Positions 2,012 to 63,257 of a stretch of 64,000 nucleotides of DNA are shown here, in pieces. This DNA comes from Basidiobolus meristosporus CBS 931.73 (Eukaryota > Basidiobolomycota > Basidiobolomycetes > Basidiobolales > Basidiobolaceae), in contig MCFE01000255.1 of the NCBI GenBank assembly GCA_002104905.1, positions 48,689 to 112,688 of the forward strand, read 5' to 3'. How positions within the stretch are numbered: position 1 is the first letter of the stretch; each line of letters starts with the position of its first letter. Both the position numbers and the translations under genes were made by a program. Below the pieces are notes generated by a model that ran no database searches, was not told where the DNA came from, and saw nothing but the letters and a program-made list of their open reading frames with translations.

Positions 2012-3550
2012 TCAAGATTCCTGGAGTGGCAGGGTTTGTTCAGCCGAGGTGGCTAAGCCGCTAGCGTCCTCTTGGACTCGCTTACTAATCCACTGGTACC
2101 ATTCCTCTTCGGTCCTTCCTTGTAGAAAGCCTACGATCACCACCGTCATGTTGTCACAGCCAATGCCACCAAGCTCGCTATCGGGTGCCAGGCAATGATC
2201 CATCATGCTTTCGCATATCTGTGCTAAAGTTTGGTGCTCAGCAATCTTTGCTCGGACAAACGCGACCACTTCTTCTGAACTCATACAATCCCAAATACCT
2301 ACACAGACAGAACCTTGAGCGATGCGACCCTTCAACGAAGGAAATCGAATTACATACCGTCGCAAGCGAGGACAAGGAATTCGTCTTCAGTGGCCAAAGT
2401 GTGCTCTGCAACGTCAGGATTGGCTACAAAGCGAAGAATTGGCACCGATGTCTTTGATAGCAAGCATACAAACAGGTGCAGTATTACCAGTGACAATTTG
2501 ATCTTCAGGATTCAACTTGAGGTTCTGTTTAAATTCGAAATCCCCGATTGCTCGAGACAATGCCAAGTTGCCTGAAATCACAAGCAATTATTTGGTATAT
2601 ATCGATACAAGTCTTTGCTGATGTCCGGCTTACCATTCACTCGGCCAAACTCAACAAAGCCACCAGCAGCAACGATACGAGAAGATTCCCCTGATACAAG
2701 TATGAGCGATAGTTTCACGCAAATCTAAGCGAGCTTCCCCGCAGTCAAGAGGGTACCTTCGTTTACTGGCTTGTGATCTTCCGACATGGCCTTGGCTTTT
2801 CCACCGGCTGATAAAACAGCGCGAGAGTCACCGGCGTTTCCCTTTGGACCGGTCAGCTGTACATTCTGCAACTTTGAACAGAGTCACAATAGACTCACTT
2901 ACAACAAAGATCCTCTTGTCGGGGGTGATTAGTGCGGTGACTGCGGTGCAACCGGAGGAATCGTGAATAAAATCAGAATCTAAATTTGACAAAGCTTCAA
3001 CGTCTAAAGTTTGGTTCCCGGACAATAGGATTAATCCTAACCTCTTTTAAGATCCGAGTCTGCCCCTAGGAAACCATTCTTGATAGCAAGAGCATAGTCA
3101 CCCTGAAGAAAGGCCTCATCCTTGATGATTCGTTGATGCAACTGTTCCCCACTATATTTTGCGGCACCACGACCTGCAAGTTACATAGAATAAACGGTGT
3201 GAGTGTACAGAATGCAACTCTATCTGATATAAGCATACCTCCGTGGCCATCGTATACGCCGAAGAAACTTGTGTCGTTCAGATCTTTGAGCTTCAGTATG
3301 GTGGTGTGCGCATCTTCCATTGCTGTAGAGTTGTGGGGGTTGGGTTAAGGAAGAAGCTCGCTCTGTGATAGTAAGCTCTAACCAGAAGGCCGCAGCCGGC
3401 GCACCTCTACACAAATCGCAGAAGTTCCTGTCGAAGCAAAAGGATACTGACTCGCCAACCTTGCATGGCGGAGGCACCACAGATCAACCGCTCATCACCA
3501 TAGAAGGTCGAATGTTTCTCGACAACAGGCTCAGAGAGGGTTTGTCCCAT
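2012..3550 (-). CDS. PP2C-type protein phosphatase (Ptc2/Ptc3 group)
   Basis: Metal-dependent Ser/Thr phosphatase; the Ptc2/3 group acts in stress-MAPK and checkpoint down-regulation. Nine exons on the minus strand: 3550-3448, 3322-3239, 3173-3042, 2979-2903, 2856-2757, 2690-2634, 2571-2488, 2423-2358 and 2298-2012. All junctions are GT..AG and in phase, giving 329 aa. The start MGQTLSEP fits an N-myristoylation signal (Gly2, Ser6). Signature motifs in order: GWRVTMEDAH (31-40), [10 protein letters not shown] (54-63; Asp59/Gly60 bind metal), [15 protein letters not shown] (Asp142), [22 protein letters not shown] (Asp234, Asp238) and [10 protein letters not shown] (Asp283). All metal ligands of the family appear intact. 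It is shorter than yeast Ptc2, lacking a long C-terminal tail. One uncertainty: exon 4 could begin 24 nt earlier, at 3003, through an in-frame alternative acceptor (3004-3005), but that intron would be only 38 nt. Confidence 0.93.
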
Positions 3551-6492: not shown

Positions 6493-7122
6493 ATGCTTTC
6501 TGTTGGGGTTGCCCACTTCTGTGGTGCATTTTCGCCCAGGAAAACGCGACGACAACCTCATGATGGCAAAACAGGGGAGGGAGCCCGCTTCATCGTTGTC
6601 AATGGAAGAGTGCTTCATTCCCCACAAATGGCTGGATCCAAGACGCCCCAACCTGTATACATGCCGCTTACCAATAGTCAGCTACGGATAGCAGTCACTT
6701 GTGCTTATACTTGCACCCCAGCAGCAAGGACGCCTTGTGTTTCATCAACATCACGGTTGGACGGCATCTGTCTGAGGAGTAGAGGCACAGTCTGTTGCAT
6801 CCATTCGTACCTGACTCGTGCGTACAACTCCCTGACAGCGGGTGACAGATGTGGGCCGCTCAAGGAACCATTTCTTAAGCGTGGTGATCCAGTGCTCAAA
6901 TCCGTTATCAGCGCACTCAGATTCGGATTGCCGGTCATATATGGATATATGGTTTTGAAATTCAATCCAATTCGAGAAACCTATGAGCAGCCAGGGTTGT
7001 CGTACACGTATTATTTAAATCTGTCGGGCCCCGCCGATTTTTTTGATTGGCTACCTTCGGACAAACAAATCCTGGCCTCGTATGACGTAAGTGCCGGGCA
7101 GGCACCTATCCGCTTGATTTAG
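6493..7122 (+). CDS. Hypothetical protein, weakly supported
   Basis: A 209-codon open frame (ATG 6493, stop 7120-7122) that I do not recognise. The C-terminal third looks the most protein-like: hydrophobic and aromatic residues such as FGLPVIYGYMVLKFNPIRE and ADFFDWLPSDKQILASYD. Just before the nominal end there is a strong donor, GAC|GTAAGT (donor at 7087). Splicing to an acceptor CAG about 64 nt downstream would skip this stop and continue in frame through TDAEFRKKRLSSG to a stop at 7253-7255. The true 3' end may therefore be 7255. The N-terminal half reads poorly and may contain an unrecognised intron or be non-coding. The opposite strand is also partly open (6705-6965), which lowers confidence. 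It lies about 320-450 bp upstream of the Cys-Pro repeat gene on the same strand. Confidence 0.3.
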   Translation: MLSVGVAHFCGAFSPRKTRRQPHDGKTGEGARFIVVNGRVLHSPQMAGSKTPQPVYMPLTNSQLRIAVTCAYTCTPAARTPCVSSTSRLDGICLRSRGTVCCIHSYLTRAYNSLTAGDRCGPLKEPFLKRGDPVLKSVISALRFGLPVIYGYMVLKFNPIRETYEQPGLSYTYYLNLSGPADFFDWLPSDKQILASYDVSAGQAPIRLI

Positions 7123-7426
7123 GAGCACCCCAGCGAATTGCAAGTATCAGACGGATGCTGAGTTCAGAAAGAAAAGGCTCAGCAGTGGGACTGCAGAACA
7201 CAGGAGTAACCCAAGGTGCCGTTATTGCAGTTGTCAAGCATCGATGTATAGCTGATCAGCTCGATAGGAGTCGGGTGGCATGAGGTTTCGATAGCCACAA
7301 ACCCATTCGCCAATCACGGGTCAGTTGACCACTAGCGAATGCTGAGACGAGATCATTGGTGCACGATAGTAGCCAAATAAGGGCATTCATTTTCCTCCTA
7401 TTCATGTTGAGCCTGGATTCACTGGC

Positions 7427-7435
7427 ATAAATAGA
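7427..7435 (+). promoter_or_regulatory. TATA-like element upstream of the Cys-Pro repeat gene
   Basis: CATAAATAG lies about 140 bp before the ATG at 7573. The leader before the start is pyrimidine-rich, and the start context AAATAAGATGTCC has a purine at -3. This is a weak call from position and composition only. Confidence 0.3.
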
Positions 7436-7572: not shown

Positions 7573-8820
7573 ATGTCCAGCTCCAACGCCGGTAAATGCC
7601 CTTACAGTGGACACTCCAAACCCGCCGCTGATTCCAGCGAGGCCTCCAAATGCCCCCTAGCCGGCAAATGCCCATACTACGACCAGGTGAAGAATGATCC
7701 TGCCCACCATTTGACCTCCGACCACGGAGAGTGCCCAGTCAAGGGGAAATGCCCATACTACGATGTCGTCAAGGAAGGTCACGACAAAGGCGAAGGGAAA
7801 TGCCCCTTCCTTGAGCACATGCAGGGCATGAGTTTGAATGAGGCCCACGAAGCCGGAAAGTGCCCTCTCGCCGGTAAATGCCCATATTATGACCAAGTCA
7901 AGAAGGATCCCGCTCATCACTTGACCGGCAGCCATGGCGAGTGTCCCGTAAAGGGCAAATGTCCATACTACGACCAAGTCAAGCAAAAGGAGGGCATGGA
8001 TACTGCCCATTCTTCCAAGTGCCCCCTTGCTGGTAAATGCCCATACTACAATCAGGTCAAAAATGATCCTGCACATCACTTGACCGCTGAGCATGGTCAA
8101 TGCCCAGTGAAAGGAAAATGCCCGTACTACGACGAGGTCAAGGAGGGTCATGAGGCAGGAGAAGGCAAATGCCCTTTCCTCGAACGCATGCAGGGTATGG
8201 GTGTCCATGAGGCCCATGAGTCCGGCAAATGCCCACTTGCTGGAAAGTGCCCATACTACGATCAGGTTAAGAAGGATCCCGCCCATCATTTAGCCGGGGA
8301 GCACGGCGAGTGCCCAGTCAAAGGAAAGTGCCCCTACTACGATCAGGTTAAGCAAAAGAGCGTTTCTGAGGCCGAGCACAAATCGAAGTGCCCTCTTGCT
8401 GGAAAATGCCCTTACTACGACCAAGTGAAGCAGGATCCTTCTCACCACTTGACTGGCGAACACGGAGAGTGTCCTGTCAAGGGCAAGTGTCCGTACTACG
8501 ATGTTGTTAAGGAGGGTCATCATACGGGGGAAGGAAAATGTCCTTTTGTTGAACACATGAAGGGTCATGGAAGTGGCGAAGCGCATGAGGCTGGAAAGTG
8601 CCCACTAGCTGGCAAGTGCCCCTACTACGACCAAGTCAAGAGTGACCCTTCACACCATCTCACCGGGGAGCATGGTGAATGCCCAGTCAAGGGTAAATGC
8701 CCATACTACGATGAAGTCAAGGAAAAGAGCACAGCTGAGGAAAGTTCATCAGCCCTACCCGAGGGCCATCCTCCAGTACCTGGTAGTACGACCGGAGGCA
8801 AGTGCCCATTTTCCAAGTGA
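7573..8820 (+). CDS. Cys-Pro (heme-regulatory-motif-like) repeat protein
   Basis: Intron-less 415-aa protein. After a 25-residue leader (MSSSNAGKCPYSG...) come three copies of a 123-residue super-repeat. Each is a 70-residue unit A (residues 26-95, 149-218, 272-341) followed by a 53-residue unit B (96-148, 219-271, from 342), with a short Pro/Gly tail ending GGKCPFSK. Each unit opens KCPLAGKCPYYDQVK, then DPAHHLT, HGECPVKGKCPYYD; unit A adds GEGKCPFLEHM. There are 29 cysteines and every one is followed by Pro. His pairs (HH) and HG are conserved in each unit. There is no signal peptide or membrane segment, so it is probably cytosolic or nuclear. Known: KCPF/CP motifs bind heme in ALA synthase presequences, heme oxygenase-2 and Hap1. 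Inferred: a multivalent heme or metal binder or buffer. Codons vary between repeats while residues stay fixed, indicating selection on the protein. Family not recognised. Confidence 0.85.
   Translation: MSSSNAGKCPYSGHSKPAADSSEASKCPLAGKCPYYDQVKNDPAHHLTSDHGECPVKGKCPYYDVVKEGHDKGEGKCPFLEHMQGMSLNEAHEAGKCPLAGKCPYYDQVKKDPAHHLTGSHGECPVKGKCPYYDQVKQKEGMDTAHSSKCPLAGKCPYYNQVKNDPAHHLTAEHGQCPVKGKCPYYDEVKEGHEAGEGKCPFLERMQGMGVHEAHESGKCPLAGKCPYYDQVKKDPAHHLAGEHGECPVKGKCPYYDQVKQKSVSEAEHKSKCPLAGKCPYYDQVKQDPSHHLTGEHGECPVKGKCPYYDVVKEGHHTGEGKCPFVEHMKGHGSGEAHEAGKCPLAGKCPYYDQVKSDPSHHLTGEHGECPVKGKCPYYDEVKEKSTAEESSSALPEGHPPVPGSTTGGKCPFSK
7648..8745 (+). repeat. Coding tandem repeat, three 369-bp super-units
   Basis: Super-units begin at 7648, 8017 and 8386 (exactly 369 bp apart), each made of a 210-bp A and a 159-bp B half. 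The last B unit diverges after its first 50 codons. Many differences between copies are third-position changes (for example gccggtaaatgc, gctggtaaatgc, gctggaaagtgc). Confidence 0.9.
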
Positions 8821-8944: not shown

Positions 8945-8950
8945 AATAAA
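8945..8950 (+). terminator. Poly(A) signal of the Cys-Pro repeat gene
   Basis: AATAAA about 125 bp after the stop codon, in an AT-rich 3' region. Assigned from position only. Confidence 0.4.
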
Positions 8951-10961: not shown

Positions 10962-13900
10962 AAGTTGCCATTCTCTGCAATGCTTACTACTGCTATTACT
11001 GGAATTTCCCCTCTGCTGAAAAGTTGGATGGATCTAACTACCCAGTGTGGCTGGTGAAGATGAAGATGCTGCTGCAAGAAAGAGGCCTTTAGGATGTTGT
11101 CATAGGAGAAGAATGCCCTTGTAAAAATGTGGGAGAGGAAGCCTTAGAGTACCAGAAGAAAGTACAATGAGCCTTTAACTGCATTTGCTTGAATGTCAAA
11201 GACAAATTACAAATTCAATGCTCAAGAGTAAATACCACATAGAATGCCTGGAAGGCATTAAAAGACACATAATAGTCATGTGCAGCTGCTAAGAAAATGT
11301 GTATTTGCCAAAGATTCCTTATTACAAAGATGCTGCCAGGAGAAGAAATGAAAAATATAATAAACAGAATTACCCTGCTGGTGGGTGAGATGGAATCTGT
11401 AGGTGTACCAACTACTGATGAGGATGTTACAGTTACCATCCTGAATTGCCTGACAGATATGTTTCAGGGCCTTGTATCAGCCCTAGAGCTCAGAACTGAA
11501 GATTGACTTTAAAATACGTATATGGAAGGCTCCTGGATGAGAATTAAGATAATCATGCACCAAAAAGAAGGAATAAGAAAAAGCTTTAATAAGCAGTGAT
11601 AACCAACAAAGGAGATACTCAAGACCCTTTGAAGGCAACAGCAATCTGCTTTGCAATTGCTGCAAAAGGAAAGGACGCACATTACGTTGTAAGAGTCTTG
11701 GAGATATTGGATGTGATTGGGAGAACAAGTAGATTATGTGGTTTTCACTTAATGATTTATTGAATGTAAAAGTAGTATTTATACTTTTACCTGGTCTTGG
11801 CATTACAAACACCTAGAATAGGTCAAGGAAGGTCCCAAGAACATGTATGCAAAGTTTGGGGTTGTTTGGACAACTTTGAGAATCTTCATGTTCTGGGTAC
11901 CTGGTATTTTGGTGAAAATATTCTAAGTAAATCCCAACAAGGAATTTGGTCAGTATTCTCTAGAATTTGAAGGTGATGATCTAAGTGACTAAGTTAGGTG
12001 AATATTTAGGTGGAAATACAAATTTTTACGACACATTAGACTGGTGCTTCAAATAGAGAGATAATCAGCAAAAGTAGCCAGAATATGGAAATGCTGCAAC
12101 AACTGAAGATAGACTATTCATATCTGCCCTAACTATGACCACAGACAAGGATTCTCAGATGTGGTACATTGGCTCTGGAGCATCTCAACACCTTACACAC
12201 CAGAAAGAACATTCTACTCAATATCAAGAAGTTCCAATTAAGAAGGTTTTCATGGGTGACAATAGAACACTTGATGCAGTGGGAGAAAGAACTATCCAAG
12301 TAAGCCTTAGAAGCATTGATGGAAGCCATACACTTTCCTTCAAAGAAGTACTCTATGTACCAGAAATGGCTAAGAGCCTACTATCTGTAACCAAGGTCAC
12401 TTCTGAAGGACTCAGTCTCAGCTTTGACAATTCTGGATGCAGGGTTGCTGGTCAAAATGGTGTCCATATTGCTTTAGGTATCAGAGATCAGAATCTATAC
12501 AAGTTGATATATATTCCATTGTATCTGGAAGCCAATATAAGTAACTTAAATGAAGAAACACCAATGCTTTGGCACAGGAGATTTGGATGCATTAATTTTG
12601 ATTATTTGTGCAAAATGATCCAAGATCAGCTAATATCCAGAATGAAAATTGATCCCCCAGCTAATGTGAAGCACTGTAAAGCCTACATATTTGGGAAAAA
12701 AGCCAGACAACTGTTCAGGAGCTCTGGATTAATCAAAGCTAAAAAAATTAGATCTCAGATTTGTGTGGACCTATGTAAAATATACCCTTAGGTGGGATGA
12801 AGTATTTAATCACTTTTATTGACAATTATACAAGAAACATGTGGGTCTACTTCATGGAGAGAAAGGAAGCAGCTATGTCTAAGCTCAGGGAGCTTAAAGC
12901 CATGGTGGAGGGAGAAACCAGTGAGAAAATCAAGAAAATATGCTCCAACAATTGTAGAAAATATACCTCAAAACTCTTCATCCACATCTGCAAAACCTGT
13001 GGGATAAAGTAAGAGACTACTGTACCACACTCCCCACAGCAAAATGGAGTAGCAGAACATGCAAACAGATCAATAATTGATATGGGAAGATCCATGATCC
13101 ATTATCAAAAACTATCCTCTCATTTTTGGGCAGAATATTTGCCATAGCTGTATACCTTATATATGAGTTATAACAGAATAATTTGTGATTCTACTCCACT
13201 TGAGTCATGATATGGATACAGACAAAGTGCAGCATCTTAGAATATTTGAGTAAACAGCATATGCCAAGAAACTACCTGAAAATCAGTTACAACATGAGCT
13301 AAAAAGTGTAAAATTGATATTTTTGGGCTACTGCAATGAGAGTAGCAAATACAGACTCTACAACACTAAAGCAAAGAAGCTGATTAAGTCCAGGGATGTG
13401 CTGTCTGATGAAAATTCAGATTTTCCACAAAAAATGACATCAGATGATGACAAAAATGTGATCTTAAGTCCACCAATTATCAGGATTGAATCTGAATAAA
13501 ACAATGAAATCTTTCTCACTCCAGAGTACTCTAAAGCTGTGGTTCAGCCTGAATTAGTGCCCAAGAATATCCCAGAAGTGATCAATCCAGTATCAAATGC
13601 CAGGAGATCCAACAAGTCAAGAAATAGCCCAAATTACTATATCAATGAGTGTACAAACTTAGCCAATGACTATTCAGTCAATATTGATGAGCCCAGACTG
13701 TAAAAGAGACCCTAATTAGCCCACAGACAAAGTTTGGGAGATCTGCAATGACTGAGGAATATCAGGCCCTGATGGAAAATCAAACTTGAGACTAAGTCAA
13801 ATTACCAATTGACCAAAAATCAATTGGATGGAGGTGGGTCCTTAAGACAAAATACAAGGCTGATGGTACAACTGAAAGATACAAAGCAAGACTTGTAGAC

Positions 13901-24049: not shown

Positions 24050-26276
24050 TTACCCACGCATTGGGGCTGCTTAGCTTCTTAATGCCATAGGCATAGGTGT
24101 CTCCACGGGCACATTTGTCCTCAATATTTACCAACTATTTCTGACAGTCCTCCATGTGCTAGCACATTACATCCATGACTTACCTGAAGGTAGTATTCTT
24201 GATGAGATTGGGATATGGTAATACCTGTAACTTGACTTGTCTTCCTATCTGCCCAAACATCTGCTCCATAGGAAACTCTCAAAAGGTAAAGCAAGGCCCA
24301 ATACTCACCACACACCATGCAAGATGGAGTAGAGAATGGATAGAGTAGCGGCAGAGATCTATGTGTTCAGCTTTATGTTTGGGGTATAGCTGCTCAAATC
24401 CCATCACAAACTCCTCACACAACAACTATAGATGCGTCAAGCTGGCATTAGTGATCTGCCTCTGGATAAATACTCCTACAATGTCTACATATGACTCCCA
24501 ATGCTTCCAATGTACTCTTGGTAGGAATGGCTTCAGAACACCACTGGAATAAATACATATTCAGTTCATCCAGTCTTTGCATTTGTATTGTTGCATATGC
24601 ATATGAATATTAATTGGCACCTGTTAGAGGTACTTAGGGTAGCAGATACTCTGCAATATCTTGCCAATTCTTTCAAACTTCTCTGGTATCTTGAAGGGCT
24701 CATTTAGCCTGAAATGCCCCATGTACAACTTGGTCATTAGTGTAGGAATACTGTTGAAAAGCAAATGCATTGCTCCCAGTGGAAAGCGTTTGCTCCAACA
24801 GATACCCTCTATCTTAAGTATCTCAGGCTTCCAATTGATTCCATATTCCAGCCAATGGCCTATAGCTTGCCAACTTTGTTGCAATTGCATGCTTACTTCT
24901 GTACATTCTCTCTGTGAAATGATGATGTTCTTAGTGCTGATATTTGGGTAATAATAATGTGTGTGAGTTATGGAGTAAGTCCCCTGGATCTCACACATTT
25001 GACAGCAATACTGTCCATTGTGCCCCGATAAACCTGCAATCTTGCTGATGGCTGGGGTATCTCCAATACAAATAATAATATGGGCTTTTACATGATGGCC
25101 ATTTACCATTATCCTGCTGCAAAGCATACAAAATTCATCCAGTAATGGATACTGGTAGCTATCCAGGTTGGACGGTGATTTAGGCCCAGATACCAGTGAG
25201 ACTACCACCAGATTATTGCTCTGATACCATAAGATGGGTGGCAGATTCATATTGATGAGATTCAGTAGCCAGCAGGATTTGCTGGTAGAGAACTTGTTTA
25301 ATGAGAATCCATCAAGTGCCAAAGCAAAGGCATGGTCATACATACCTTCAAAGTAGCCCTTGCTTCTTAGCTGTTTGCAATTTTTGCCATCAAATATATC
25401 AGATGTGTTTGCAATTGATTTATACTGAGTGTGGTACTGTATAGCTTTGCAATATTTGTTGGACTGCATCAGCTTCCTCAGACAGGGTATGACCAGAATA
25501 TATCTGGAGTGTGAACAATGTTTTCCCTCAATGATGGTAGATTCCTGACAATTTGGATGCTTTGGAATGGTAGCATTTTTAGATTTGCATGCCATGCAAC
25601 TGTTAACACATGCTGGAATCAGGACAATCTCTGGAACATATGTTGCCAGCCACATGACGGTTGTCCACTTTTACCATGTACATGGTAAGTTGCATCACAG
25701 CACAATTTTGGCAAGAAGCAGTAATAAATCCTCAAAGCCCCAATTACTGATATTAGTGGAAACGCACCACTTCTCTAGCCACAACATTACATCATTCACC
25801 AGTAGAAGGATTACTTGGCCTACTTGGTTACATAAAATATCCTTGGCATTTGTTTCAATGGGTGTAGTCTCATTGCATATAGGGATTTGACCAGGCACAT
25901 ATGTGGTACTGTTGTGAGGGGAGATAGGCTCAAAATCCATCAGTGAACCTTCTTTGTCAGAGCTATCACTTGGCAAGCCATATTCAGAAGGCTGAGGTGA
26001 GCCTAGAGGCATCACAAACTCACCTGACTCAGTTTGTGCAAGGTGACAAAGACAGCCAGGTGCCAATATAGAAGTATCAACTGGCCTGCAACATAATGTT
26101 GGTACAGTAGTGACCAATGAATGGTCAAATATGACTTGGGTGGCAAAACACTGGCCGTGATACTTGTAATACTTCCTATGCTGTCTACATGCTTCATGGC
26201 TGCGAGGCTTGCCACAATAGCCAAGTGGTCTTTTTTCTCTTCTCTTACAGCATTGAGTCAAAGTGGTCTTGTTCAT
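24050..26276 (-). pseudogene. C2 Tnp2-type (CACTA) transposase
   Basis: Starts at the ATG complementary to 26274-26276. The N-terminal part (26276-25695) has a Cys/His cluster (CCKRREKRPLGYCGK ... HEACRQHRKYYKYHGQC) and an acidic linker. The 24624-25655 frame (343 codons) contains the Tnp2 signature: CMACKSKNATIPKHPNCQE, ALALDGFSLNKFSTSKSCW, NLINMNLPPILWYQSNNLVV, SGPKSPSNLDSYQYPLLDEF, IIICIGDTPAISKIAG, GHNGQYCCQMCEIQG and HLLFNSIPTLMTKLYMGHF. The C-terminal block (24318-24121) has several stops. The two main frames overlap in different phases near 25690, either through an intron or a frameshift. It is the best-preserved transposase of this family here, but it is not clearly functional. Confidence 0.82.
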
Positions 26277-37262: not shown

Positions 37263-37609
37263 TGTTGTAAAATTTTTACTTCCACCTAAATATTCACCTA
37301 ACTTAGTCACTCAGATCATCACTTTCAAGTCCTAGAGAATACTGACCAAATTCCTTGTTGGGATTTACTTAGAATATTTTCACCAGAATACCAGGTACCC
37401 AGAACATGAAAATTTTCAAAGTTGTCCAAACAGCCCCAAACTTTGCACCCATGTTCTTGAGACCTTCCTTAACCTATTCTACATGTTTGTAATGCCAAAA
37501 CCAGGTAAAAGTATAAATACTACTTTTAAATTCTGTAAATTATTAACTGAAAACCACATAATCTATTTTTCTCCCAATCACTTCAAATATCTCCAGGACT
37601 CTTACAACA
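37263..37609 (+). repeat. Copia-2 5' LTR
   Basis: 347 bp, TGTTGTAAAATTTTTAC ... gactcttacaaca, followed by the primer site ggctatgagcccc (37610-37622), one change from the copia-1 and copia-5 site. Confidence 0.88.
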
Positions 37610-37613
37610 GGCT

Positions 37614-39889
37614 ATGAGCCCCAAGCTGTCACTCTCTGCAATGTCTACTACTGCTTTTACTGGAATTTTTCCCTCTGCTGAAAAGTTGGATGGATCTAAC
37701 TACCAAGTGTGGAAGGTGAAGATGAAGATGCTGCTACAAGAAAGAGGCCTTTGGGATATTGTCATGGGAGAAGAATGCCCTCCTAAAAGCGTGGGAGAGG
37801 AAGCCTTAAAGTACCAGAAGAAAGAACAAAGTGCCTTTAACTGCATTTGCCTTAATGTCAAGGACAAATTGCTAATTCAATGCTCAAGAGCAAAAACAGC
37901 AAAGAATGCCTGGAAAGCATTAGAAGACACCTACCAGTCATGTTCAGCTGCCAAGAAAATGTATCTGAGATGAAAATTCTTTACACAAAGATGCAGCCAG
38001 GAGAAGTAATGAAAAATCTAATTAACAGAATTACCCTGCTAGTAGATGAGATGGAATATGTGGGTGTACCAACTACTGATGAGGATGTGATAGTTACCAT
38101 CCTGAATAGCCTGACAGACAAGTTTCAGGGCCTTGTATCAGCCCTAGAGTCCAGAACTGAAGATTTGACCTTAGTTTACATATATGGAAGGCTCCTGGAT
38201 GAAGAATTAAGAAAATCAATTGCTAATAAGATGGAAGAAAATGCTTTAATAAGCAATGATAACCAACAAAGGAGGTACTCAAGACCCTACAAAGGCAACT
38301 GCAACCTGTTTTGAAACTACTGCAAAGGAAATGACACACATCAGACTGGTGTCTCGAAAAGAGAGATAATCAGCAAAAGAAGCCTAAATATAGAAATGCT
38401 GAAACAGCTGAAGATAGACTATTCATATCTGCACTATATATGACCACAAACAAGGATTCTCAGATGTGGTATATTGACTCTGCAGCATCTCAACACTTTA
38501 CACACCAATAAGAACTTTTTACTCAATATCAAGATATTCCAATTAAGAAGGTTTTCATGGGTGACAATAGAACACTTGATGCAGTGGGAGAAGGAATTAG
38601 ACTTGTTCCATCATTCCAGCTGATCATTGTACCCAATAGTGCCATAGCATGCCAGATGGTGCCTGATCATGCCTCAGATTGCCAGATGGTGCCATACAGT
38701 GCCAATTTAGAATCAAAATTGACATGCAACCCTAAAATATCAAATTAATAACAAAATATACAGCACCCTCTGGCACTATGATCAATGGCACAATGTAACA
38801 AGTCTATTATCCAAGTAAATCTAAGAAGCAGTGAAGGAAGCCATACACTGACTCTCAAAGAAGTAAACTATGTACTAGAAATAGCCAAGAACCTACTATC
38901 TGCAAGCAAGGCCACTGCAGAAGGACCCAGTTTCAGCTTTGACAATTCTGGATGCAAGATCACTGATCAAAATGGTGCCCATGTTGCTCTGGGTATTAGA
39001 GATCAGAATCTATACAAGTTGAATTATTTTCCATCATATTTGGTAGCCAATATAAGTAACTTAAATGAATAAATACCAATGCTTTGGCACAGGAGATTTG
39101 GGCACATCAATTTTGATTATTTGCGCAGAATGGTCAAAGATCAGCTAATTTCTGGAGTAAAAATTGATCCCCCAGCTAGTTTGAAGCACTGTGAAGCCTG
39201 CATATATGGGAAACAAGCCAGACAACTGTTCAAGAACTCTGGGTTAATCAAAACTAAGAAAACTTAGATCTAATTCACTCAGATCTGTGTGTAATATGCA
39301 AAATTTATCCTTAGGCAGGATGAAGTATTTAATCACTTTTATTGATGATTATACAAGATACATATGGGTCTACTTCATGGATAGAAAGGAAGAAGCTCTG
39401 TCTAAGCTCACAGAGCTTAAAGCCATGGTGGAGAGAGAAACAGGTGAAAAGATCAAGAAAATATGCTTTGACAATGGTGCAGAATATACCTCAAAACTCT
39501 TCATCCACTTTTGCACAATTCATGGGATAAGGCAAGAGACTACTGTACCATACTCCCCACAGCAAAATGGAGTAGCAGAACATGCTAACAGTTCAATAAT
39601 TGATATGGCAAGATCTATGATCCATGATCAAAAATTATCCTATGATTTTTGGGCGGAATCAGTTGCCACTGCTGTATACCTTAAAAATAGGATTTATAAC
39701 AGAATACTTGGTGATTCTACTCCATTTGAAGCATGGTATGGATACAGACCAAGTGCAGGACATCTAAGAATTTTTGGGTGTACAGCATATGCCAAAAAAC
39801 TGGCCGGAAATCAGTCAAAATTTGATCCAAAAAGTGTAAAATGCATATATTTGGGCTACTGCACTGGGAGTAAGGCATACAGACTCTAA
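37614..39889 (+). pseudogene. Copia-2 gag, protease and integrase, disrupted
   Basis: gag (37614-37973, then 37880-38314 in another frame): AEKLDGSNYQVWKVKMKMLL and FQGLVSALESRTEDLTL. The zinc knuckle near 38310 has lost its first Cys to TGA. Protease WYIDSAASQHFTH (about 38470) has DSA instead of DSG, and the next segment is split by the MITE. Integrase: LWHRRFGHINFDYL and HCEACIYGKQ (zinc ligands intact, 39079-39267), then a frame 39287-39889 with FDNGAEYTSKL (Asp kept) and QQNGVAEHANSS (Glu kept). Several stops and frameshifts make it non-functional. Confidence 0.82.
38599..38805. mobile_element. Harbinger-type MITE (207 bp) in copia-2
   Basis: Termini AGACTTGTTCC and its complement (GTAACAAGTCT), flanked by ATT (38596-38598 and 38806-38808). 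Removing it with one ATT restores ggaattatccaag, the same length as ggaactattcaag in copia-5, which fixes the duplication at 3 bp. The interior is packed with GTGCC/GGCAC and TGCCAGATGG motifs, like the subterminal parts of the full Harbinger. No coding capacity. Confidence 0.92.
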
Positions 39890-40272
39890 AATACCAAAGC
39901 AAAGAAGCTGATCAAGTCTAGGGCTGTATTGTTTGATGAAAATTCAAAATTTTTTTAAAAAATGACATCAGTTGATGACAAAAATTTGATCTCAAGTCCA
40001 CCAATGTCAGGATTAAATCAGAGCAAAACAGTGAGAGTTTTTTCACTCCAGAGGACTCTACAACCATGGTTCAGCCAGAATCAGTGGCCATGAATATCCC
40101 AGAAGTGATCATTCCAGTATCAAATGCCCAGAGATCCAAATGGACAAGAAATAGCAAAAATACTTTATTAATTAGGGTAAAACATAGCCTATGCCTCCTC
40201 AGTCCATATTGATGAGCCCCAGACTGGAAAGAGGCCCTAAATAGCCCTCAGACAAAGTTTTGGAGATCTGCA

Positions 40273-41730
40273 ATGACTGAGGAATATCAGGCCCTGATGG
40301 AAAATCAAACATGGGACTTAGTCAAATTACCAATCAACCAAAAATCAATTGGATGCAGATGGGCCTTCAAGACAAAATACAAGGCTGATGGTACAATTGA
40401 AAGATACAAAGCAAGACTTGTGGCCAAAGGATACTCTCAAACGAAAGGACTTGACTATACTGTGACCTTTGCACTGGTAACCAAGTTTAATTTCATCCGA
40501 TTAAAATTGGCTATTGCAGCCAAATATAAGTTTTTTATTCATCAAATGGATGTAAAAACTGCATTTTTGAATGGAAAACTTGATGAGGATGTGTGTATGG
40601 ACCAGCCTGAGGGGTTTGTTGACCAAGATAACCCCCATTTGGTCTGCAAGCTTAAACAGTCACTCTATGGCCTCAAACAATCACCAAGAGCCTGGAATTG
40701 CAAGATAGATTCTTATTTGGAATCTTTGAGTTTCAAAAGGAGTAATGCTGACTATAGTATATACTATAAGCCAGATAGGGCAAATCCAGTTCAATTAGCT
40801 CTATATGTGGATGATCTTATTATAGCCACCAATAACCTAGAAACATTGGAAGAGACTAAATCCAGCCTATCTAAGGAGTTCAAGATGTCCAATCTAGGAG
40901 AACTTAATTACCACTTAGGGATTAAGTTCTCCATTGGCAGAAGTACCCAGACTATTACCCTGAGCCAATCCAAGTATACTCAAGATATACTAAAGAAGTA
41001 CCAGATGGTAGACTGTAAACCAGCAGCTACCCCAATGGAGACAAACCTTAACTTGGTCAAAGCTCAACCAAATCAAGAGAGCTTGGTGCCATCTGAAAGC
41101 CCTGACTTTCCTTATCAATCTATGATCGGCAGTCTGATGTATATTATGCTTGGAACACATCCAGATATCTCATATTCTGTGGGAGTTGTCAGTCAACATA
41201 ACCAGAACTTTGGATCTGATCATATTGCAGCAGTTAAGCGGATTTTTAGTTACCTAAAAGGAGCTGCTGATATCTGCTTAAGATACACTTACAAGGATTT
41301 AGAACAGGATCTTGTGGGATACTCTGATGCTGATTGGGGACAAAGTTTGGAAGACAGAAGATCCACCACAGGATACACCTTTCTTTACTGTAAAGGAGCA
41401 ATTTCATGGAATTCAAGAAAGCAACCGACCATAGCACTTTCCATCATAGAGGCAGAGTATATTGCAGCCTGTGATGCTGCAAAAGAAGCAATGTGGTTAA
41501 GAAAGCTGTTTACAGATTTAGGCCTATGTCAAAAAATGCCTATTAATTTATTTCAAGATAATCAAGGATGTATACAATTAGGTAGAAATCAAACTTTTCA
41601 TGCTAGAACCAAGCACATAGATATTAGACATCATTTCAAACTTGAAGCAATCGAGAATAATATAGTTAGCTTAGTTTACTATCCTACAGATGAAATGATT
41701 GCAGATATATTTACCAAACCATTCAGCTAG
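40273..41730 (+). CDS. Copia-2 reverse transcriptase-RNase H frame (485 codons)
   Basis: Uninterrupted C-terminal pol frame, part of a dead polyprotein, so it has no start of its own. Signatures: MTEEYQALMENQTWDLVKLP (start of the copia RT domain), [29 protein letters not shown] (first catalytic Asp), [16 protein letters not shown] and YVDDLIIA (catalytic Asp pair). RNase H: YSDADWGQSLEDRRSTTGYT (Asp), IIEAEYIAACDAAKEAMWL (Glu), FQDNQGCIQLGRN (Asp) and KHIDIRHHF. TFALVTKFN replaces the usual TFAPV. The stop at 41728-41730 falls within TKPFS, slightly short of the family end (compare copia-5). Confidence 0.85.
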   Translation: MTEEYQALMENQTWDLVKLPINQKSIGCRWAFKTKYKADGTIERYKARLVAKGYSQTKGLDYTVTFALVTKFNFIRLKLAIAAKYKFFIHQMDVKTAFLNGKLDEDVCMDQPEGFVDQDNPHLVCKLKQSLYGLKQSPRAWNCKIDSYLESLSFKRSNADYSIYYKPDRANPVQLALYVDDLIIATNNLETLEETKSSLSKEFKMSNLGELNYHLGIKFSIGRSTQTITLSQSKYTQDILKKYQMVDCKPAATPMETNLNLVKAQPNQESLVPSESPDFPYQSMIGSLMYIMLGTHPDISYSVGVVSQHNQNFGSDHIAAVKRIFSYLKGAADICLRYTYKDLEQDLVGYSDADWGQSLEDRRSTTGYTFLYCKGAISWNSRKQPTIALSIIEAEYIAACDAAKEAMWLRKLFTDLGLCQKMPINLFQDNQGCIQLGRNQTFHARTKHIDIRHHFKLEAIENNIVSLVYYPTDEMIADIFTKPFS

Positions 41731-48052: not shown

Positions 48053-48979
48053 TTACTCTTCATAATGCTCCAGACACATTTCTCTCAGTGGATGTCTTCT
48101 TGTATGAACATACTGTGCATTAATAAGTATCTTAACTATTTTACCTATTCTGCTGTTTTCTCCTGTATATGACTTTCCTCTGTATTTACCTGCCAATATG
48201 CTGAATCTCTTCAGATATCCAAATGTGTGCTCTACCCTTACTCCAAAATGATTAAATATCTCATTGTAGAGCTTCTGCTTCCTGCTAAGTACACCATTCC
48301 TTGGCTTCCTATAAGCTGTAATACATCCTAATCTCTGACAATCCTCTCCTATATAAGCTAAGTCTGCCATACATTTCTCCCCTCTACTGAATTCAGGATG
48401 ATTCTCTACCCAGAGTGCTTTGTCATGCCTACTTCCAGCAAATGGCCTACTAAACCAGATGATGTTACCCTCAATGTCAGACAGTGCTTGAAACTTCACA
48501 CAGTGTGCCTTGTACTTGCCAGAATAAAAGTGCCTCTGCCCTCTAGAAGGTCTGTTAATCCTCACTGGGGAGGTATCCAAAATACTCCTGATATGGAACC
48601 TGTTGCTGAACACTCTGGGATATGGAAGTCTATTGGAGCTTCTGAACCTAGTATTCCAAGCTTGCTCTAAGTCATTCATACCCTCTGCAAGGTGGTTCTC
48701 CATTGCTGTCAGCTGGGAATGAAAGCTTCCAGGACTTTTGTTGCCATGGATGGTGGGATGAAACCTGGTAGGGCAATAGTTCTTGTAATAGCAGAGAAGC
48801 TTGACAAGGGATCTCCTTGAGTAGATTGGGGTTGATGGTCCACAGTACTTGGAATAGATCTCCTCTAGTGTGTCAAAAGAAAATCCAGTGGTAGTGATGG
48901 GATTGATGAGAAAAGACCATTCAGATGAGTAAGTCATATTAAAATTGGTGGATGATTGTATTAAGGCGGTTTGAATCAA
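48053..48979 (-). CDS. PIF/Harbinger DDE transposase
   Basis: At least 308 uninterrupted codons ending at 48053 (TAT..EHYEE stop). The first two acidic residues are in ILDTSPVRINRPS (equivalent of iDGTxxxIxxP) and MADLAYIGEDCQ (equivalent of aDxGYxG), and the Glu is in RVEHTFGYLKRFSI, so the DDE triad appears intact. HFYSGKYKAHCVKFQALSD and FAGSRHDKALW are also classic DDE_4 blocks. The frame stays open upstream (ADRAKLIQTALIQSS) to about 49002 with no ATG, and AAATCAG there could be an intron acceptor. The true start is therefore probably in an upstream exon that I cannot place. It is the only transposase in the window with an undamaged catalytic domain. Confidence 0.85.
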   Translation of the reverse strand: MIQTALIQSSTNFNMTYSSEWSFLINPITTTGFSFDTLEEIYSKYCGPSTPIYSRRSLVKLLCYYKNYCPTRFHPTIHGNKSPGSFHSQLTAMENHLAEGMNDLEQAWNTRFRSSNRLPYPRVFSNRFHIRSILDTSPVRINRPSRGQRHFYSGKYKAHCVKFQALSDIEGNIIWFSRPFAGSRHDKALWVENHPEFSRGEKCMADLAYIGEDCQRLGCITAYRKPRNGVLSRKQKLYNEIFNHFGVRVEHTFGYLKRFSILAGKYRGKSYTGENSRIGKIVKILINAQYVHTRRHPLREMCLEHYEE

Positions 48980-49296
48980 TTTGGCGCGATCTGCCTTATT
49001 TATCTGATTTTTAATACATTATGGTTAAATCTCCATCAATTGCCATGTATCCCATCATTATGTTGCAAATATTATCCGCAAACAATGCCTTGGTACTTTT
49101 ATTGATGCTTTAATCATAGGTCTATAATCAAATAGGAAATCTGCGATTGATGTGATCTGATCTGTGTCAACGCGATCCAAGATGCATCATGCATAATATA
49201 TGGAAAATTCAACAATCACATTAGTTTTCATATATATTTCATATAAGACCAGGTTGATGCCAATATACTACTGTATAAGTATCCAAATCTGTTGCT

Positions 49297-59297: not shown

Positions 59298-62200
59298 AAG
59301 CTGTTACTCTCTGCAATGTCTACTACTGCTATTACTGGAATTTTTCCCTCTGCTGAAAAGTTGGATGGCTCTAACTACCAAGTGTGGAAGGTGAAGATGA
59401 AGATGCTGCTACAAGAAAGAGGCCTTTGGGATATTGTCATAGGAGAAGAATGCCCTCCTAAAAATGTGGGAGAGGAAGCCTTAAAGTACCAGAAGAAAGA
59501 ACAAAGTGCCTTTAACTGCATTTGCCTTAATGTCAAGGACAAATTGCTAATTCAATGCTCAAGAGCAAAAATGGCAAAGAATGCCTGGAAAGCATTGGAA
59601 GACACCTACCAGTCATGTTCAGCTGCCAAGAAAAGTATCTGAGACAAAAATTCTTTACTACAAAGATGCTGCCAGGAGAAGAAATGAAAAATCTAATTAA
59701 CAGAATTACCCTGCTGGTAGATGAGATGGAATCTGTGGGCGTACCAACTACAGATGAGGATGTGATAGTTACCATCCTGAATAGCCTAACAGACAAGTTT
59801 CAGGGCCTTGTATCAGCCTTAGAGTCCAGAACTGAAGATTTGACCTTAAATTACATATATGGAAGGCTCCTGGATGAAGAATTAAGAAAATCAAGCGCCA
59901 ATAAGAAGGAAGAAGAAAATGCTTTAATAAGCAATGATAACCAACAAAGGAGGTACCCAAGACCCTACAAAGGCAACAGCAACCTATTTTGCAACTACTG
60001 CAAAAGGAAAGGACACACATCAGACCGGTGTCTCAAAAAGAGAGATTATCAGCAAAAGAAGCCTGAATATGGAAATGCTGCAACAACTGAAGATAGACTA
60101 TTCATATCTGCACTAAATATGACCATAAACAAGAATTCTCAGACGTGGTATATTGACTCTGGAGCTTCTCAACACTTTACACACCCAAAAGAACTTTTTA
60201 CCCAATATCAAGAAATTCCAATTAAGAAGGTTTTCATGGGTGACAATAGAACACTTGATGCAGTGGGAGAAGGAACTATTCAAGTAAACCTTAGAAGCAG
60301 TGAAGGAAGCCATACACTGACCTTTAAAGAAGTGCTCTATGTACCAGAAATAGCCAAGAACCTACTCTCTGTAAGCAAGGCCACAGCAGAAGGACTCAGT
60401 TTCAGTTTTGACAATACTGGATGCAGGATCACTGATCAAAATGGTGCCCATATTGCTTCGGGCATCAGAGATCAGAATCTATACAAGTTGACTTATATTC
60501 TATCATATTTGGAAGCCAATATAAGTAACTCAAATGAAGAAACACCAATACTTTGGCACAGGATATTTGGACACATCAATTTTGATTATTTGAGCAAAAT
60601 GATCAAAGATCAGCTAATTTCTGGAGTGGAAATTGATCCCCCAGCTAATTTGGAGCACTGTGAAGCCTGCATATATGGGAAACAAGCCAGACAACCGTCT
60701 GATAGCTCTGGGTTAATCAAAACTAAGAAAAAATTAGATCTAATTCACTCAGATCTGTGTGGACCTATGCAAAATTTATCCTTAGGCAGGATGAAGAATT
60801 TAATCACTTTTATTGATGATTATACAAGATACACATGGGTCTACTTCATGGAGAGAAAGGAAGAAGCTCTGTCTAAGCTCAGGGAGCTTAAAGCCATGGT
60901 GGAGAGAGAAACTGGTGAAAAAATCAGAAAAATACGCTCTGACAATGGTGGAGAATATACCTCAAAACTTGTCATTCACTTCTGCAAAATTCATGGGATA
61001 AAGCAAGAGACTACTGTACCATACTCCCCACAGCAAAATGGAGTAGCAGAACAAGCTAACAGATCAATAATTCATATGGCAAGATCTATATCCATGATCA
61101 CAAATTATCCTATGATTTTTGGGCGCAATCAGTTGCCACTGCTGTATATCTTATAAATAGGAGTTATGACAGAATACTTTGTGATTCTACTCCATTTGAA
61201 GCATGGTATGGATACAGACCAAGTGCAGGACATCTAAGAATATTTGGGGGTACAGCATATGCCAAAAAACTGGCCGGAAATCAGTCAAAATTTGAACCAA
61301 AAAGTGTAAAATGCATATTTTTGGGCTACTGCAATGAGAGTAAGGCATACAGACTCTACAATACCAAAGCAAAGAAGCTGATCAAGTCCAGGGATGTGTT
61401 GTTTGATGAAAATTCAAAATTTTCACAAAAAATGACATCAGATGATGACAAAAATTTGGTCTCAAGTCCACCAATTGTCAGGATTGAATCAGAGCAAAAC
61501 AATGAAAATTTTTTCACTCCAGAGGACTCTACAACCATGGTTCAGCCAGAATCAGTGCCCAGGAATATCCCAGAAGTGATCATTCCAGTATCAAATGCCC
61601 GGAGATCAAATCAGACAAGAAATAGCCCAAATTACTATATCAATGAGGGTACAAACTTAGCCTATGCCTATTCAGCCCATATTGATGAGCCCCATACTGT
61701 AAAAGAGGCCCTAAATAGCCCTCAGACAAAGTTTTGGAGATCTGCAATGACTGAGGAATATCAGGCACTGATGGAAAATCAAACTTGGGACTTAGTCAAA
61801 TTACCAATCAACCAATAATCAATTGGACGCAGATGGGTCTTCAAGACAAAATACAAGGCTGATGGTACAATTGAAAGATACAAAGCAAGACTTGTGGCCA
61901 AAGGATACTCTCAAACAAAAGGACTTGACTATACTGAGACCTTTGCACCGGTATCCAAGTTTAATTCCATCAGATTAATATTGGCTATTGCCGCCAAATA
62001 TAAGTTTTTATTCATCAAATGGATGTAAAAACTGCATTTTTGAATGGAGAACTTGATGAGGACGTGTATATGGACCAGCCTGATGGGTTTGCTGACCAAG
62101 ATAACCCCCATTTTGTCTGCAAGCTTAAAAAGTCACTATATGGTCTCAAACAATCACCAAGAGCCTGGAATTGCAAGATAGATTCTTATTTGGAATCTTT

Positions 62201-63257
62201 GAGTTTCAAAAGAAGTAATGCTGACTATAGTATATACTATAAGCCAGATAGGGCAAATCCAGTTCTATTAGCTCTATATGTGGATGATCTTATTATAGCC
62301 GCCAATAACCTAGAAACATTGGAAGAAACTAAATCCAGCCTATCTAAGGAGTTCAAGATGTCTGATTTAGGAGAACTTAGTTACTACTTAGGGATTAAGT
62401 TCTCCATAGACAGAAGTACCCAGACTATCACCCTAAGCCAATCCAAGTATATTCAAGATATACTAAAGAAGTACTAAATGGAAGACTGTAAACCGGCAGC
62501 TACCCCAATGGAGACAAACCTTAACTTGGTAAAAACTCAACCAAATCAAGAGAGCTTGGTGCCAACTGAAAGCCCTGACTTTCCTTATCAATCTATGGTC
62601 GGCAGTCTGATGTATATCATGCTTAGAACACGTCCAGATATCTCATATTCAGTGGGAGTTGTCAGCCAACATAATCAGAACTATGGATCTGATCATCTTG
62701 CAGCAGTTAAGTGGATTTTTAGATACCTAAAAGGAACTGCTGATATCTGCTTAAGATACACTTATAAGGATTCAGTACAGGATCTTGTGGGATACTCTGA
62801 TGCTGATTGGGGACAAAATTTGGAAGACAGAAGATCCACCACAGGTTACACCGTTCTTTACTGTAAAGGAGCAATTTCATGGAATTCAAGAAAGCAACCA
62901 ACCGTAGCACTTTCTACCACAGAGGCAGAGTACATGGCAGCCTGTGAAGCTACAAAAGAAGCAATGTGGCTAAGAAAGCTTCTTACAGATTTAGGCCTAT
63001 GTCAAAAAATGCCTATTACTTTATTTCAAGATAATCAAGGATGTATACAATTAGGTAGAAATCCAACTTTTCATGCTAGAACCAAGCACATAGATATTAG
63101 ACATCATTTCATACATGAAGCTATAGAGAATAACTTAGTTAGCTTACTTTACTGTCCTACAGATGAAATGATTGCAGACATATTTACCAAACCATTAGCT
63201 AGAGACAAGTTTGAATATCTTAGGTCAAAATTAGGACTAGTCAGTATGAGCATTTAG
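59290..63257 (+). pseudogene. Copia-5 gag-pol polyprotein, lightly disrupted
   Basis: gag begins MSPKLLLSAMSTTAITGIFP and contains AEKLDGSNYQVWKVKMKMLL. Order: CCHC knuckle CNYCKRKGHTSDRC (about 59991-60032); protease WYIDSGASQHFTH (DSG intact, about 60146); integrase finger LWHRIFGHINFDYL/HCEACIYG (HHCC intact) and core HSDLCGP, RSDNGGEYTSKL, QQNGVAEQANRS (DDE intact); RT HQMD-equivalent near 62010 and [11 protein letters not shown] (about 62275); RNase H YSDADWGQNLEDRRSTTGYT, TTEAEYMAACEATKEAMWL, DNQGCIQLGRN, KHIDIRHHF; end TKPLARDKFEYLRSKLGL. Disruptions: frameshift near 59635, frameshift near 61088, TAA at 61816-61818, frameshift near 62010, TAA at 62475-62477. It is non-functional as sequenced, but all catalytic residues are retained. 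Confidence 0.92.

Follow-up and report, generated by a model that had tools for sequence, protein, structure and literature searches.

Metallothioneins combine a very high share of cysteine with repeated units, and their arrays grow in copy number. The protein described here appears to be alike in all three respects, but whereas metallothionein cysteines are spaced as CXC or CC, its own form CX5C pairs with proline following, and no metallothionein was among its Pfam matches with E values up to 10. It shares K-C-P-hydrophobic motifs with Hap1 and the ALA synthase presequence; in these, a few such motifs lie beside other domains, whereas this protein consists of strictly paired motifs. Passages of earlier work put the heme affinity of Cys-Pro (CP) peptides at about micromolar and describe the six clustered CP motifs of Hap1 as binding heme strongly without a regulatory role (PMC5758875), give K/R-C-P-V/I as the form for fungal Hap1 (PMC9491583) and, for S. 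pombe Hhy1, report that one CP was dispensable whereas CPC mattered (PMC13135908). A third comparison, with the ZIP7/YKE4 zinc transporters of the endoplasmic reticulum (ER), is made through P0030, one ZIP protein with ten such CP in its N-terminal part; unlike these transporters, the protein described here has no transporter domain. ZIP7 and yeast YKE4 are located in the ER, and loss of ZIP7 is linked to an excess of zinc in the ER and to aggregated protein disulfide isomerase, according to passages on these transporters that do not print the HEIPHEVGD motif taken up below (PMC5666860).

The gene lies in the window, the whole 64,000-nucleotide stretch of Basidiobolus meristosporus DNA that was analysed (C486:48689-112688), and genome searches covered the 89.0-Mb assembly of 1311 contigs. 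Its coding features are as follows.

7573..8820 including the stop, + strand: single-exon ORF of the Cys-Pro-repeat protein, 415 aa, ATG to TGA (from the ORF list and homologues)
7648..8016, + strand: super-repeat 1, residues 26-148, nine CP (from module comparison)
8017..8385, + strand: super-repeat 2, residues 149-271, nine CP (from module comparison)
8386..8754, + strand: super-repeat 3, residues 272-394, nine CP (from module comparison)
7648..7773, + strand: module 1 of 6, residues 26-67, with two CX5C pairs, DPxHHL and HG
7858-7983, 8017-8142, 8227-8352, 8386-8511 and 8596-8721, + strand: modules 2-6

The initial annotation of this DNA had described a protein of 415 residues with 29 cysteines, all in Cys-Pro motifs of the types KCPY, KCPL, ECPV/QCPV and KCPF, with three 123-residue super-repeats of nine CP each plus one at either end, and with conserved histidines in DPxHHL and HG. 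Each part of this description agrees with our analysis: the frame at 7573-8820 has proline after 29 of 29 cysteines, the motif list returns the same four types, the end motifs are those of Cys9 and Cys411, and DPxHHL and HG are found in six of six modules. Shuffling the residues 20,000 times gave at most ten CP, compared with the 29 observed. Exact CX5C pairs, a feature absent from the initial annotation, take in 24 of the 29 cysteines, while the remaining five belong to three KCPF linkers and to both ends of the protein, and there are 12 adjacent pairs where random placement of 29 CP (20,000 trials) gives no more than eight, a comparison in which the repeat copies are not independent. The pattern [KR]CP[VILFYM] fits 23 of 29 sites, while the stricter K/R-C-P-V/I printed for fungal Hap1 fits none of the 29.

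At the DNA level, Tandem Repeats Finder reports a period of 369, 2.9 copies and 75% matches within the ORF. Across the 15 comparisons among the six 41-aa modules, nucleotide identity is 0.74-0.82 and amino acid identity 0.85-0.95, with dN of 0.04-0.085 and a dS that is saturated in nine comparisons and 1.0-4.1 in the other six. The modules are alike in protein while their synonymous sites have reached or come close to saturation, which marks the repeat as old and its protein as held by selection; together, the shuffles and dN/dS rule out chance or composition as the source of the CP pattern. Codon use of the ORF correlates with that of three HSP70 ORFs of the same genome at r 0.62-0.64, with a ribonucleotide-reductase-like ORF at r 0.44 and with three transposon ORFs at r 0.44-0.53. 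The genome also has a local HSP70 cluster, with five matches in about 13 kb (G000:C416:1828-15285). An antisense ORF at 7657-8289 (- strand) overlaps the Cys-Pro-repeat ORF, and the simplest explanation for it is the repeat itself.

The initial annotation had proposed a search for homologues and knew of no described family with this architecture. Such a search returned 30 public proteins in all, 13 with the window protein as query and 29 with a profile whose scoring was limited to the 7996 candidates with most words in common; 22 of the 30 carry chytrid names, and these we take to belong to Chytridiomycota. P0025 has a JGI code that probably stands for Homolaphlyctis. Thus homologues do exist publicly, mostly as hypothetical proteins, whereas the statement that no family has been described holds for the libraries and literature searched; our literature search, which left most subscription journals outside its scope, found no publication naming a Cys-Pro pair family. 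The chytrid Cys-Pro proteins P0001-P0025 (for example, Chytriomyces hyalinus HDU77_007421) are uncharacterised and have the same CP[LV]xxKCPYY (CX5C) pairs, the family unit, as the window protein, which matches P0001 with a phmmer E value of 1.7e-52. Most of them have hydrophobic N-termini (judged by eye) and xxEL tails, two features missing from the window protein, whose repeats are also more regular. P0027, a Glomeromycotan member from Ambispora gerdemannii, and P0028 have the same pairs together with xxEL tails, and differ in being shorter and lacking the two pairs with which the chytrid form begins. Overall, an ER-retrieval-like xxEL C-terminus is found in 22 of the 30 proteins, the exceptions being P0004, P0009, P0010, P0011, P0024, P0026, P0029 and P0030, and most known relatives, the chytrid proteins, look ER-resident by these signals.

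The pairing is retained across the family: among 243 CX5-6C pairs in 31 proteins, both cysteines are followed by proline in 220, one in 18 and neither in five. The single-domain members P0015-P0023 all (9 of 9) have 11 cysteines after residue 22, at spacings of 6, 15-30, 7, 22-23, 6-7, 19-23, 6, 16-17, 6 and 25-28. In the 12-row alignment A2, ten Cys columns always have proline next where cysteine is present, with four of the columns filled in 10 rows, and one histidine is invariant (12 of 12 rows). At column 125, 12 of 12 rows have cysteine and only 4 of 12 have proline next, meaning that the thiol has been kept where the proline was not. Relatives also carry His-rich C-terminal stretches.

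Shuffles that keep CP in place, applied to 11 of the 30 proteins, gave z values of 7.6-14.8 for nine of them (9.7-14.8 for the chytrid-named members tested, 8.8 for P0027 and 7.6 for P0028), 5.4 for P0030 and 3.1 for P0029. The last value is low enough that P0029 may represent a second family of Cys-Pro repeats that arose by convergence; this EukProt transcript has 18 cysteines, all in CP, within CPAFKDGCPF-like repeats, and no hydrophobic start by eye. The share of cysteines in CP ranges across the family from 0.38 (P0026) to 1.00, the low values probably reflecting gene models, and the unrelated N-terminal domains attached to P0012 and P0014 are probably gene-model fusions. A prokaryote or viral source was considered in one pattern scan each, in which 2 and 10 stretches matched and none was confirmed as a relative. 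The window protein itself has the CX5C pairs with proline and the homology beyond CP placement that mark the family, and lacks its common, non-universal combination of signal peptide and ER-retrieval tail; judged on sequence comparison, it is a divergent, tail-less member.

Searching the genome with the window protein recovered the window gene and one further locus, a paralog on C280. Queries with P0015 and P0028 for an ER-type copy matched the same two loci alone. The paralog and the non-coding features of the window gene are listed below.

L006 3616-5812 (G000:C280:145115-147311): paralog of the window gene
7017..7053, + strand: upstream block common to the promoters of both paralogs, with an inverted CCAAT box, 34/38 columns identical
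7426..7433, + strand: TATA-like CATAAATA, a pattern match only, with the ATG 147 bases downstream and no intervening ATG
8945..8950, + strand: AATAAA, a possible polyadenylation signal, a pattern match only

The paralog multiplies the same nine-CP scheme as the window protein in 6.6 near-identical copies of a 333-bp unit (96% matches) holding 63 TGY-CC words, an array that has grown or been homogenised recently. Its reading frame is interrupted by two breaks, either genuine or introduced during assembly. The shared promoter block (window 7017-7053 against L006 3065-3102) has an E value of 2e-7, with matches at chance level in the rest of the promoter, and two exact core patterns of the block are present at both paralogs and nowhere else in the 89 Mb, so that exact matching gives no sign of a wider regulon. 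The paralog has a TATATA about 60 bases 5' of its ATG and one more in-frame ATG at about -55.

No start codon of the window gene or the paralog gives a hydrophobic leader. A hidden signal-peptide exon was also considered and rejected: hydrophobic short ORFs begin upstream at -418 in the window and at -1430, -397 and -150 in the paralog, and none is common to both. The window protein ends in PFSK. As it has neither an xxEL tail nor an evident signal peptide, it is probably located in the cytosol, as far as such signals can tell.

P0030, of 485 aa, has a hydrophobic start and ten CP before residue 165, followed by a Zip domain (E 3e-51) with an HEIPHEVGD stretch that we assume to be typical of the ZIP7/KE4 group. 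With its CP region as query, no second ZIP-CP fusion was found among 79 candidates. Over its membrane part, P0030 is matched at 55-57% by two ZIP genes of the window fungus; where the N-terminal stretches of these genes align with the CP array, the one on C422 has one CP and the one on C466 has none. The C422 gene (L055 2259-3071) retains a lone CPFH where P0030 has the array. Both ZIP genes adjoin a ribonucleotide-reductase-like ORF (named by eye).

Domain libraries place the window protein in no described family with any confidence. Its score against DUF427 (PF04248), 41 bits compared with a cut-off of 22.1, would at face value make it a member sharing that fold, but this score is the sum of seven short stretches at E values up to 10, none of which passes 0.01 by itself and the best of which covers 22 of 93 profile positions. 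None of the nine other aligned family members matches DUF427, or any other row found with the window protein, at 0.01. We rejected membership on coverage and hold it to be very remote. The ALA synthase presequence family (PF09029) falls below threshold, at 20.8 bits compared with 21. In NCBIfam, the matches of the three proteins scanned were all far below cut-off, and a row that carries the name of a Francisella virulence factor (E 0.0098, 16.3 compared with 130 bits) was taken as noise. The PDB, searched by sequence, had no match for the window protein, A2 or P0030, and AlphaFold models have a low-confidence mean pLDDT of 45.8 for P0022 and 40.4 for the window protein. We call the protein a putative Cys-rich ligand buffer with an architecture of its own, and infer its ligand below.

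Our favoured reading, to which we give a probability of roughly 0.4, is a paired-thiolate buffer for a soft or borderline metal, most likely zinc, that would follow a metallothionein-like logic in an unrelated sequence. The window protein would belong, as a repeat-expanded and probably cytosolic member, to an undescribed family found in early-diverging fungi; the more common form of this family resembles an ER-resident protein. Each CPxxxKCP[YFH][YF] unit would act as a two-thiolate clip, and clips in twos, or with nearby histidines, would hold the metal ion; from this we infer metal binding, the likely metal, the cytosolic location and the role of the whole protein as a high-capacity metal buffer or store. 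The pair grammar, the cysteine that outlasts its proline, the His-rich stretches, the ZIP fusion and the growth of the paralog array favour metal, and, speculatively, 11 cysteines plus the invariant histidine make 12 ligands, which would suit three four-ligand sites. Several points count against it: zinc alone leaves the proline after nearly every cysteine unexplained, CX5C is a non-standard zinc spacing, the ZIP fusion comes from the single protein P0030, the two ZIP genes of the fungus's own genome that are similar to P0030 have one CP or none in the corresponding stretch, and both predicted structure models are of low confidence.

The main rival is a multivalent heme binder, with each Cys-Pro ligating ferric heme through its thiolate and the protein buffering, carrying or detoxifying heme; the 29 of 29 prolines, the 23 of 29 sites that fit [KR]CP[VILFYM], the near-miss to the ALA synthase presequence family and the heme binding known for CP peptides and clustered Hap1 motifs (PMC5758875) all point this way. 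We nevertheless consider heme less likely than metal as the ligand, as none of the 29 sites has the fungal Hap1 form, fixed CX5C pairing and an invariant cysteine without proline would be unexpected for independent heme sites, the P0030 fusion points to metal, and many CP motifs lack a function tied to heme, as shown by the six of Hap1 in regulation (PMC5758875) and by the dispensable one of Hhy1 (PMC13135908). Since CP motifs bind heme often without such a role, the protein should be expected to bind hemin in vitro even with a different function. Distinctly less probable is a thiol/disulfide role, in which the CX5C pairs would be reversible disulfides and the protein would buffer redox state or take up oxidants, acting in the ER in chytrids and in the cytosol in this fungus. 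Cysteine pairs in the ER are often oxidised, and the ER-type tails of 22 of 30 relatives and the pair grammar fit such a role; the odd number of cysteines, 11, in 9 of 9 single-domain members does not, and a redox role would account neither for the His-rich stretches nor for the ZIP fusion. The pair grammar is found both in ER-tailed relatives and in the tail-less, probably cytosolic window protein, which disfavours a purely disulfide role. What stands of the initial proposal of a multivalent heme or metal binder is thus a multivalent binder outside described families; its emphasis on heme is less supported, because the CX5C pair unit, the invariant cysteine without proline, the ER tails, the His stretches and the ZIP fusion fit a divalent metal, in line with its alternative of another soft metal, at least as well as heme.

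More broadly and more tentatively, it is possible that the CX5C Cys-Pro pair represents a ligand-binding module of a new type, serving as a dedicated ER-lumen zinc or heme store in chytrids and some other early fungi, joined to a ZIP exporter in one lineage, and here relocated to the cytosol and multiplied into a metallothionein of a second kind. No buffer dedicated to zinc or heme in the ER lumen is known to us. If zinc is the true ligand, an ER zinc store working beside a ZIP7-like exporter would add a new component to early-fungal metal homeostasis. The repeat form in the window fungus would be a high-capacity version of the chytrid Cys-Pro protein. The small chytrid members, with 11 near-fixed cysteines, are easily made, and their ligand and stoichiometry are directly accessible.

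Contamination is unlikely for either contig: C486 also has protein phosphatase 2C and V/A-type ATPase exons, and C280 carries genes for a phosphodiesterase and for a protein with an RWD domain. A search for IFT57, for which there was no eukaryote control, gave no match, a result weakly consistent with a fungus that lacks flagella. The protein phosphatase 2C exon, at window 2015-2386 (- strand), is an ordinary host neighbour of the Cys-Pro-repeat gene. Elsewhere, the window holds pieces of Ty1/copia-type retrotransposons (gag, integrase and RVT_2) at 12078-12788, 37551-41727 and 59531-63254, and DNA-transposon ORFs at 24627-25670 (- strand) and 48056-49018 (- strand), of the tnp2-type transposase and DDE_Tnp_4 kinds.
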